DNA from: Bdellovibrio bacteriovorus
GTDB taxonomy: Bacteria; Bdellovibrionota; Bdellovibrionia; Bdellovibrionales; Bdellovibrionaceae
Assembly: GCF_001592755.1 (NCBI RefSeq)
Contig: NZ_LUKF01000018.1
Location: forward strand, 1-64,000
Direction of reading: 5' to 3'
Length of the DNA stretch: 64,000 nt
This document shows, in pieces, positions 2,741 through 50,026 of the stretch. A model generated the notes under the pieces. The model did not search any database and was not told where the DNA came from. It was given only the letters and a program-made list of their open reading frames with translations. The translations under genes and the position numbers were made by a program. Numbering within the stretch: position 1 is the first letter of the stretch; each line of letters opens with the position of its first letter.

Positions 2741-3352
2741 TTACAAGATTGTATCAGCAAACATCGCTGAACATACGTAGCCATTCGCGCGCACGATCGT
2801 TACTTTTGCATAAAGCTTACGACCTTCATCAACGAAACCGCCACCAGCAACTCCTGTAGATTCGATCTTCAACTCGATGTTACCCGCAGTTGTTAGCAAT
2901 GCTGGAACTGATACGTTCGCACCTAGGTTCCCAAGCTGACCTACAGAGTATGTCTGTAAGTAGTAAGTTCCTGCTGGAACCACGCAGCCAGAGTTCGTTG
3001 TGTCGTAGAACGTAGTTGGTACAGTCAAAGTTCCTTGCATCGCAATCGGACCGTTGTACCACTTATAGTTGTAACCTGATGCGTTCGGCTGGATCAGACC
3101 GGCCTGCGCGTACACTTGCATATTCGACAATGTAAATGCATTTGTGGAAGCCTGGCTGCTGAATGTTGTGATTACAGTCGGAGCTGTAATACCGCCGCAG
3201 TTTTGGCAACCATTGATACCCACGATCGGCGTAGTTCCGCCGCCATCGCCTTTACCACACGCTGCCAGTGTTAGTACGATTCCCAGCGCTGCTAAAGTTT
3301 TTGTGAATACCATTGCTGGAAAACTTAAAGTCTTTTTGTTAAGTCTTTCCAT
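2741..3352 (-). CDS. Predicted lipoprotein, unknown function
   Basis: A 203-residue protein with a lipoprotein signal ending in the lipobox LAAC at about residues 29-32, then a Gly-rich linker. The short motif CQNC follows near residue 50, and further single cysteines appear later (SGCVVP, YVCSAMF). The rest is rich in Thr, Gly, Asn and aromatic residues in an alternating pattern typical of beta-sandwich surface proteins. I do not recognise a family. It is followed by its own terminator. The next upstream gene on the same strand is also a lipoprotein of similar composition, so the two may be co-expressed cell-envelope proteins. Confidence 0.8.
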   Translation of the reverse strand: MERLNKKTLSFPAMVFTKTLAALGIVLTLAACGKGDGGGTTPIVGINGCQNCGGITAPTVITTFSSQASTNAFTLSNMQVYAQAGLIQPNASGYNYKWYNGPIAMQGTLTVPTTFYDTTNSGCVVPAGTYYLQTYSVGQLGNLGANVSVPALLTTAGNIELKIESTGVAGGGFVDEGRKLYAKVTIVRANGYVCSAMFADTIL

Positions 3353-47950: not shown

Positions 47951-50026
47951 TTAAAGAAAAATAGCTTCGCAGCGTAACGCCCCCGCCGCAGGAGCCACAA
48001 CCTTTTCCTTCGCACCGAAGATCACACTTTTCATTTCGCTCCAACCTAATTTGATCAGGTCCGCGCGAGAAATCTTTTCTTCCACCACAAGCTTTTGATA
48101 AACCATCGCCGGATGTGCAACCGCATAACTTTTCATCATGCTCGTCACAGTGAGCTTACTTCCAGCATCGGCCAAAAGCTTATTCACAATAACAATACCG
48201 CGGTTCAAGCTGACAAATTCGTAAGGAAGTTTGATTCCGTTATCCATTGCAAAAGCTGTCCAGTGCTCTAAGGACGTATTTACTTCGGCACCGGAGTGGA
48301 TTCGGCGAATGCGCTCAGCCACCAAGCTTTGCAGCTGAGTTTGATTGACCGTATTTCTATTTTTATCGCTCAAATTCCAGAAGGCACGCGCAATCAGTTC
48401 CGCATTTAAAAGTTCAGTTCCAGCGCCCAAGACCATCACCTGACGTTGCATCGACTCGGAAATCACTCCACCCATACCGAAATCCAGAATGTGCAGACGA
48501 ATCTTAGGATCTGTGACATGCATCATGAAGTTACCTTGATGCAGATCCGAGTGATAAAAGCCGCCACCGAACATCACTTCATTGGCCCACAGTTTGGCCA
48601 TGTTTTCGATAACCGCCTTCTTCATTTCGGGAGCGACTTCTTTATAAAGCGCCACCTCTTTATCGAGTTTTTTTCCGATCACCATTTCTTGAACCATCAG
48701 ATTGGATTCACCCGTCGATTCATAGATACGAGGCACGTTGAACTCGATGTAGTTCTTGTATTCCGGAGTCTTCATCAAAACTGTTCTGTCGTAACGAGTC
48801 TTTGCCAACTGCTGACGACGAATCGTGTCTTCTTGGCTGAGTTCTGCCGTTACGGTCGCTGTGATATCCTCAATAATGGGCGTAAGCTTCGGTGCTCCTG
48901 TTTTACGGAACTCTGGATTGTTATCCAGAATTTTTGCGACTTCCGTCAGAATAACTTTATCCTCTTGCACTCTTTCAGCAATACCCGGCTTGATGAAACG
49001 CACGACCACGTCATGGCGCTTTCCATCCACGGTGATTTTAGCGCGATGAACTTGCGCCATTGTTCCTACACCCAAAGCTTTTCTTTCAAAATAAGTAAAC
49101 TTGTAGTTTCCATGTTCTTTACTGACGATTTGCTCGACTTGCACCCATGGCACGGGACGCACCGAGTTTTCTAAAGTGCGGAAGACCTCGAGCATTTCAG
49201 GGCCTAAATCTGCTTGGCGTGCGACGACTTGCAAAAGCTTTTGCAATTGGGGACCGCTATTTTGCACCATGATTTCGAACTTTTTCATGTCCGAGATTAA
49301 AAGATCTCCGCCCAAGTAAGAAGACACGATGAGCTTTTTTGATTCTGGCGACAAGCGCGAGAAGTATTCACTGAACATGGTCTCCATGAAGATTCTCATG
49401 GTCTTATCTTGCTGTTGAGCAAAACCATTTTGCGCGATTTTTTCGCCCACGCGGTCTAACTCTTTCATACGGTCTGCCAACAAGGCTTCACTTTCTTGCA
49501 GGGCCCAATTTTCCGCAATTTTTTGCGCTTCGGGATTTTGCAAAAGAGCCATCGCCTGACCCGCAAGCTTTTCCATATCCAAAGATTCGCCGCTATTTTG
49601 CTTTTGCGCCATGGATTTTAACTGCTCTTGTTGCCACTCTAAATAAGTATCAATCTGTTTTTGGATGCGAGGACTTTCGGCCTCAAAGATTTTCATGGCG
49701 CGAGGACCTTGTTTTTCCAGAATTTCAAGATCCAGCTTCACGCTGTGAGTATTTGGCCAAGCCCCTTTATGCAGACGCAAGAACTCTTCAAAGTTCTTCA
49801 CTTTGACGTGTTCCACTTCTTTATTATAGACGCCTTGGAAGTAAGCTTTGGCTCTTTCTAGAATCTCTTGCTTGTTTTCCTGAGACTCCCCTTGAGCTAA
49901 AAGCGCATAGGTCAACGCCAGTCTTTGTTCAAAAGACAGGTGCAACCCCGTAGAGGCTGGCGTCGCCGCCACCGCAAACTTCACGACAAAAACGAACAAA
50001 ACAAATATGAATTTTGCCTTATACAT
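47951..50026 (-). CDS. ABC1/UbiB-family atypical kinase with a signal peptide
   Basis: A 691-residue protein. The C-terminal half is an ABC1/ADCK kinase-like domain: ALGVGTMAQVHRAKI in place of the AAAS loop (about residues 320-335), a VVRF beta strand, the catalytic FYHSDLHQGNF (about 490) and ILDFGMGG (about 512). The N-terminus MYKAKF...KFAVAAT is a clear signal peptide, and residues 25-310 are mostly long helices with no membrane segment. UbiB-type proteins are normally cytosolic or membrane-bound facing ATP, so an exported one is odd. The KxGQ motif of canonical members is not evident, so it is a divergent branch. Function unknown. Confidence 0.85.
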   Translation of the reverse strand: MYKAKFIFVLFVFVVKFAVAATPASTGLHLSFEQRLALTYALLAQGESQENKQEILERAKAYFQGVYNKEVEHVKVKNFEEFLRLHKGAWPNTHSVKLDLEILEKQGPRAMKIFEAESPRIQKQIDTYLEWQQEQLKSMAQKQNSGESLDMEKLAGQAMALLQNPEAQKIAENWALQESEALLADRMKELDRVGEKIAQNGFAQQQDKTMRIFMETMFSEYFSRLSPESKKLIVSSYLGGDLLISDMKKFEIMVQNSGPQLQKLLQVVARQADLGPEMLEVFRTLENSVRPVPWVQVEQIVSKEHGNYKFTYFERKALGVGTMAQVHRAKITVDGKRHDVVVRFIKPGIAERVQEDKVILTEVAKILDNNPEFRKTGAPKLTPIIEDITATVTAELSQEDTIRRQQLAKTRYDRTVLMKTPEYKNYIEFNVPRIYESTGESNLMVQEMVIGKKLDKEVALYKEVAPEMKKAVIENMAKLWANEVMFGGGFYHSDLHQGNFMMHVTDPKIRLHILDFGMGGVISESMQRQVMVLGAGTELLNAELIARAFWNLSDKNRNTVNQTQLQSLVAERIRRIHSGAEVNTSLEHWTAFAMDNGIKLPYEFVSLNRGIVIVNKLLADAGSKLTVTSMMKSYAVAHPAMVYQKLVVEEKISRADLIKLGWSEMKSVIFGAKEKVVAPAAGALRCEAIFL

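Follow-up and report, generated by a model that had tools for sequence, protein, structure and literature searches.

A C-terminal cysteine peptide common to an exported ABC1-type protein and unrelated exported proteins of Bdellovibrio bacteriovorus: a possible sorting or docking signal

Introduction

Proteins of the ABC1/UbiB type, known from the cytoplasm, from mitochondria and from plastids, make up an ancient kinase-like family that is still poorly understood. A gene of Bdellovibrio bacteriovorus raises the question of what such a protein might do once it carries an export signal, and how it would be positioned outside the cytoplasm. The gene lies in a stretch of 64,000 nucleotides (hereafter the window; RefSeq assembly GCF_001592755.1, contig NZ_LUKF01000018.1, positions 1 to 64,000), and a preliminary description had read it as an ABC1/UbiB-type kinase that might be an exported effector acting on the lipids or quinones of prey. 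A literature search pairing ABC1 kinase or UbiB with Bdellovibrio found nothing on such a protein.

An ABC1-domain protein with an export signal

A single intact open reading frame with an ATG start occupies the minus strand from 50026 to 47951 and encodes 691 aa (whole gene 47951..50026)—exactly the interval described before, when no strand had been given. The family assignment is borne out by a Pfam match to the ABC1 domain (PF03109) at residues 285-531 (48434..49174, minus strand; E 5e-30, 104.9 bits against a cut-off of 22.9), while the UbiB equivalog TIGR01982, with a cut-off of 487.55 bits, is not reached at a score of 104. Among solved structures, its sequence is similar to those of COQ8A/ADCK3, of COQ8B and of two bacterial ABC1 chains. 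Residues 21-245 (49292..49966, minus strand) match no Pfam domain above cut-off and appear as a helical N-terminal region, the helices coming solely from a low-confidence model; AlphaFold2 with four sequences gave poor models of both the full protein (mean pLDDT 40.6) and the kinase region (mean pLDDT 44.4).

The signal peptide comprises residues 1-20 (49967..50026, minus strand) and reads MYKAKFIFVLFVFVVKFAVA, with cleavage inferred after AVA and an Ala as the next residue; it is recognised by sequence, by hydropathy and by its retention as a feature in relatives, among which the h-region sequence itself varies. As had been claimed, there is no other membrane segment, the signal peptide being the sole hydropathy peak above 1.5. 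Using a crude rule of our own in place of SignalP (a positive start, a hydrophobic core and small residues at -3 and -1), signal peptides were found in 33 of 35 near relatives, 18 of 20 distant relatives and 0 of 21 cytosolic UbiB-type rows. Moreover, 9 of the 20 distant members of the exported clade carry a lipobox which, being a different signal, lends independent support to export. The export proposed in the preliminary description is thus upheld, and the window protein very probably resides outside the cytoplasm.

Could the N-terminus instead be an uncleaved anchor that leaves the kinase domain in the cytoplasm, as in membrane-tethered UbiB? The Lys just ahead of the c-region (FVVKFAVA) and the crudeness of the predictor would allow for it, but N-termini of the signal-peptide type, with a small residue at both -3 and -1, recur across divergent rows, the lipoboxes of the distant members require processing outside, and the membrane helices that UbiB has at its C-terminus are missing: UbiB-type paralogs mostly show one or two hydropathy peaks at the C-terminus, and the window protein has no C-terminal helix. 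An uncleaved anchor is therefore highly improbable.

The exported ABC1-fold clade arose once within Bdellovibrionota. In a tree of the kinase region—a check that the preliminary description had itself proposed—57 exported rows split from 21 UbiB-type rows with a support of 100/96 and one label change. L329 (48-3083), a protein of 1012 aa from a distant family of the phylum that was first labelled UbiB-type, groups with the exported clade; it has a signal peptide and is without KxGQ and VAIK. Two hydrophobic segments lie close to its start.

Two further ABC1 proteins are encoded in the same genome: the first has 559 aa and a pair of hydrophobic segments at its C-terminus, the second 493 aa. B. 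bacteriovorus is reported to produce UQ-8, by a gene set that is unclear (PMC13386864), and L001, a separate UbiB-like protein of the same genome, is the natural candidate for the UQ-8 role. No quinone pointers were seen in the neighbourhood or family of the exported protein, and the earlier suggestions of delivery to prey and of action on lipids or quinones find no direct support.

An apparently rebuilt nucleotide pocket

Shared with the UbiB/COQ8/ADCK kinases are the ABC1 domain, the K and Q of KxGQ, the HxD, N and DFG residues and the C-lobe Arg. In contrast to them, the window protein has a signal peptide, a helical N-terminal extension and a C-terminal Cys tag; it is without the C-terminal membrane helices, has lost the KxGQ glycine, and bears Gly in the A-rich loop and Arg for the VAIK lysine. 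In an alignment of 36 near members, no more than 12 residues are invariant (36/36): K263, Q266, G451, W480, H492, D494, N499, D515, G517, R609, G610 and C686. This alignment omits the near-duplicates L013, L014, L021 and L038, three rows from the same contigs as L034 to L036 (L007, L008, L020), the contig-end pieces L035, L044 and L024, the broken fragment L049 and the UbiB-type rows. Across the wider set, K263, Q266, D494, N499 and D515 are retained in 56/56 exported rows.

The motifs HSDLHQGN (residues 492-499), DFG (515-517) and GVGT (319-322) are all present as previously read. On the minus strand, as are all features of this section, the catalytic loop H492-S-D494-L-H-Q-G-N499 lies at 48530..48553 and D515-F-G517 at 48476..48484; the H, D and N of the former and the D and G of the latter are those invariant in 36/36. 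The KxGQ motif had been called not obvious, but alignment reveals it as K263-L-L-Q266 (49229..49240), with the glycine alone lost: L, F, I, V or M takes its place in 56/56 exported rows, and the 21 UbiB-type rows have G.

In place of the A-rich loop stands G319-V-G-T322 (49061..49072, by alignment), whose G321 falls opposite the third Ala in the loop of ADCK3, Ala339 (numbering after PMC4718504). Position 321 is G in 48/56 exported rows and Ala in 21/21 UbiB-type rows. The alignment further places an Arg at the VAIK lysine position, in R343-F-I-K346 (48989..49000), with a Lys three residues further; exported rows have R in 48/56, K in 7 and G in 1, and the 21 UbiB-type rows have K. Depending on the alignment, either T401 or Q405 falls opposite the alphaC Glu, the partner of the VAIK lysine, and 35 or all 36 of the near members have a residue other than Glu there. 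Finally, R609-G610 (48197..48202) is invariant in near members, and R609 is probably the equivalent of ADCK3 R611, the Arg/Lys partner of the catalytic Asp (PMC4718504).

To judge from these substitutions, the pocket of the exported clade is rebuilt consistently, not decayed. The chances appear evenly balanced that the exported protein binds nucleotide and has some ATP-dependent activity. It is rather unlikely to be an exported pseudokinase whose ABC1 fold would serve as a nucleotide-sensing or protein-binding scaffold without phosphotransfer. The Arg in 48/56 rows and the replaced alphaC Glu do recall pseudokinases; however, dead kinases often lose the HxD, N and DxG residues, which are invariant here in 36/36 near members, with D494, N499 and D515 kept in 56/56 rows. 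The loop has also shifted toward Gly, a change that in ADCK3 (A339G) reversed the ADP preference and enabled autophosphorylation (PMC4718504, with a similar account in PMC7263595). The altered activity foreseen in the preliminary description therefore stays plausible by way of a retuned pocket—A-to-G loop, K-to-R VAIK, catalytic Asp, Asn and Asp kept—and not by way of a lost KxGQ; neither Arg343 nor the conserved C-terminal Cys peptide (C686) had featured in it.

A conserved cysteine at the C-terminus

The window protein ends LRCEAIFL, and its tag C686-E-A-I-F-L691 (47954..47971, minus strand) contains its sole Cys. A Cys stands 4 to 11 residues from the end in 36/36 near members, in 31/36 as the only Cys beyond residue 35, and the last Cys lies at most 17 residues from the end in 19/20 of the distant set. 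Those rows omitted from the alignment that have a complete C-terminus also end in the Cys motif (L013, L014, L021, L024 and L038, as well as L007 and L020 via their twins L034 and L036), and the linker ahead of the tag is variable. As far as residue conservation in the 36 near members tells, the tail Cys is under constraint equal to that on the catalytic Asp.

A lone tail Cys permits no disulfide within the same protein, which makes docking on a partner more likely. Disulfides can form, since one VKOR domain is encoded in the genome (G000:C17:173942-174334, inside a 413-aa open frame); DsbB was not found there, and disulfide formation probably runs through VKOR. A thiol-using docking peptide is our first choice and lipid modification the second. 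A C-terminal lipid anchor that substitutes for an N-terminal one is weakened, as members with a lipobox also retain the tail Cys. Recognition of the free carboxylate in a PDZ-like manner is likewise weakened, with 0 to 7 residues found beyond the F/L position in near members.

The tag in unrelated exported proteins

The motif was derived from the ABC1 family and then sought among the ORFs of its own genome, of which about a third was sampled. In the first 464 kb, it occurs in 3/174 signal-peptide-type ORFs (the ABC1 gene included) versus 0/246 others. Over 1.264 Mb, 5/459 exported-type ORFs, a class that includes some membrane proteins, terminate in the strict form C..[VIL][FY].{0,2}. At 20 shifted positions, taken as a control, the number of matches averaged 0.05 and never exceeded 1, and 2/744 non-exported ORFs matched the strict form. 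Four of the five strict matches are larger exported proteins and the fifth (112 aa, contig C1) is probably chance, while one more larger exported protein fits the looser form only (RCEAILL). A form refined after the members had been seen gives 5/459 exported-type versus 0/744 other ORFs.

The tagged proteins differ in kind. P0005 (L054:71-1105, that is G000:C17:20071-21105, minus strand), a signal-peptide-bearing peptidase C26/GATase (Pfam E 4.7e-26) with relatives in 20/24 genus genomes, ends RCSKIF. Two overlapping exported genes at L067:2007-6061 (G000:C17:282007-286061), both Cys-tagged, encode the PNP-like P0003 (PF01048 E 0.0013, below cut-off) and, directly downstream, the ART-like P0004, an adjacency that recurs in several other genomes. 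P0004 may be termed ADP-ribosyltransferase-like by its invariant R349-G350, S432/S436 and E489-x-E491, read against the motif of such enzymes; Pfam and PDB gave no support for an ADP-ribosyltransferase, and a literature search on Bdellovibrio with this enzyme found, by title and abstract start, none on P0004. The exported P0002 family has no known domain; both of its paralogs (L086:7068-8141 and L232:1663-2853) possess the tail Cys, and relatives down to 24% identity retain it.

Could the shared peptide be fortuitous, or simply come with a C-terminal domain that these proteins have in common? Motifs this short do arise by chance, as the 2/744 non-exported ORFs and the doubtful 112-aa match illustrate. 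Yet the shifted-position control stays far from 5/459, the parent proteins differ in their domains, with a variable linker before the tag, and the endings RCEAIFL and RCEAILL sit on two unrelated proteins of the same genome. The Cys is retained within the last 13 residues of relatives in all four other families: ART-like 24/24, PNP-like 16/17, C26 26/30 and P0002 13/13, a total of 79/84 distinct complete C-termini across the order (incomplete ORFs at one ART-like and two PNP-like loci were excluded, and the C26 count covers 30/43 listed places). It is invariant in 19/19 and 14/14 rows of the cohort-family alignments A4 and A5. Coincidence is thus quite unlikely.

Genome-wide DNA patterns for the tag gave 7 matches versus 9 for a reversed control, and a second set gave 138 versus 70. 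As only 1 of 20 stretches chosen from the list of 138 held a real tagged exported ORF, with a slightly different ending, these counts were not used as evidence. In two further genomes, stretches sampled at random yielded no new tagged family, with tags in 0/89 exported-type ORFs of G016 and in 1/56 of G030 (its own ABC1 copy).

Two further proteins may be mentioned. In another genus, an exported protein of 325 aa (L042:3043-4020, minus strand) that ends LCSFYYK is encoded divergently beside an exported ABC1 gene and is a candidate for a further tagged family. In the window itself, a probable lipoprotein (2741-3352, minus strand) has the end YVCSAMFADTIL, which is somewhat tag-like but farther from the C-terminus.

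What is new here is the C-terminal Cys peptide itself, as read from sequences, which is common to the exported ABC1 family and four unrelated exported families. Literature on C-terminal sorting tags included none on a Cys peptide among the matches listed, and literature on Bdellovibrio with C-terminal cysteine held, judged by titles, nothing relevant. The available portion of a bdelloplast proteomics report (PMC11003981) offers many candidates and no general signal beyond secretion signals.

Distribution and place of action

The exported ABC1 protein has orthologs in 21/24 genus genomes, with a match far above that of the cytosolic paralog, the G004 copy lying at C1:2245173-2247236; G005, G013 and G025 (3/24) have a weaker match only and lack it, meaning that it is not essential. 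It is present in about 42/140 genomes of the order, and when 368 genomes from across the phylum were searched with a profile, long relatives turned up in further classes and families. Its architecture is common to relatives down to ~20% identity and hence not due to chance. Among plasmid records, 107 match the kinase part, none of them covering 80% of the query.

This spread bears directly on the place of action: a clade that spans other classes and families need not serve predation. The protein could be a housekeeping component of the predator's own periplasm or outer membrane, engaged in assembly or in lipid or cofactor handling unrelated to prey and positioned there by the Cys peptide. In keeping with this, the 9/20 distant members with a lipobox are probable lipoproteins of their own envelope, and within the genus the gene has as its neighbours those for an MFS transporter and a MOSC protein, so named by reading their sequences and not by searching for families; a predation cluster was not seen. 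On the other hand, no ATP source is known in the envelope, and 3/24 genus genomes do without the protein. A housekeeping role is conceivable, if somewhat improbable.

G044, which we presume to be B. exovorus, has no exported ABC1 protein, nor does it appear in the match lists of the four remaining tagged families. As far as one genome goes, this absence would fit a periplasm-linked role.

Discussion

The reading that we prefer is of an extracytoplasmic, ATP-binding ABC1 protein that would be docked or sorted by its C-terminal Cys peptide, a proposal that we hold to be about as probable as its opposite. The window protein would be exported by Sec and fold outside the cytoplasm, where it would still bind nucleotide, its loop resembling the ATP-preferring A339G form of human ADCK3. 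Through a mixed disulfide, or by way of a modified thiol, its tail Cys may then dock it on a common partner that would position or dispatch a small cohort of exported enzymes; that the Cys is needed for placement or docking is slightly favoured. ATP is not expected in the periplasm, which speaks against this reading, and the prey compartment would be the place to meet it. That the protein acts on prey contents serves as our working hypothesis, and no other step is less certain. Its delivery into prey is possible, any action within or upon the prey is doubtful, and effector status can at most be surmised.

More broadly, and tentatively, the short peptide (~[RS]-C-[ESQ]-x-[VILA]-[FLY]) might serve in Bdellovibrionota as a signal for sorting or docking that has so far gone unrecognised. 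It would mark a small set of enzymes exported by Sec, an ABC1-type kinase among them, for a single common receptor or modifying enzyme, possibly en route to prey. It counts against such a tag that the motif was refined after its members had been seen and that most of the genome-wide pattern hits were not tagged genes. Short C-terminal tags on unrelated exported proteins also define GlyGly-CTERM, PEP-CTERM and PGF-CTERM, but these are tripartite with a hydrophobic helix (PMC11980579), whereas the Bdellovibrionota tag is a peptide of 5-7 residues on a linker. There is also the MYXO-CTERM/myxosortase system of Myxococcota, in which unrelated Sec-exported proteins bear a C-terminal motif with an invariant Cys. 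Beyond this Cys, MYXO-CTERM continues with a membrane helix and ends rich in Arg (PMC11980579), as opposed to the five residues without a hydropathy peak that follow the Cys of the window protein. Rce1-like CPBP proteases (PF02517) gave 0 matches in the genome in a search that was positive in 11/14 control genomes. As for kinase folds outside the cytoplasm, Fam20C belongs to a different, eukaryotic kinase family. Fam20C-type kinases of the secretory pathway share with the window protein an atypical kinase fold acting outside the cytoplasm (PMC7948968).

A normally intracellular ABC1/UbiB-type protein has thus been converted to an exported form in a predatory lineage, and the conserved exported branch with its natural Gly loop constitutes a test of the ABC1 fold freed from quinone synthesis. 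If the Cys peptide is indeed a sorting or docking signal, it would provide a sequence handle on how predators place or deliver their enzymes.
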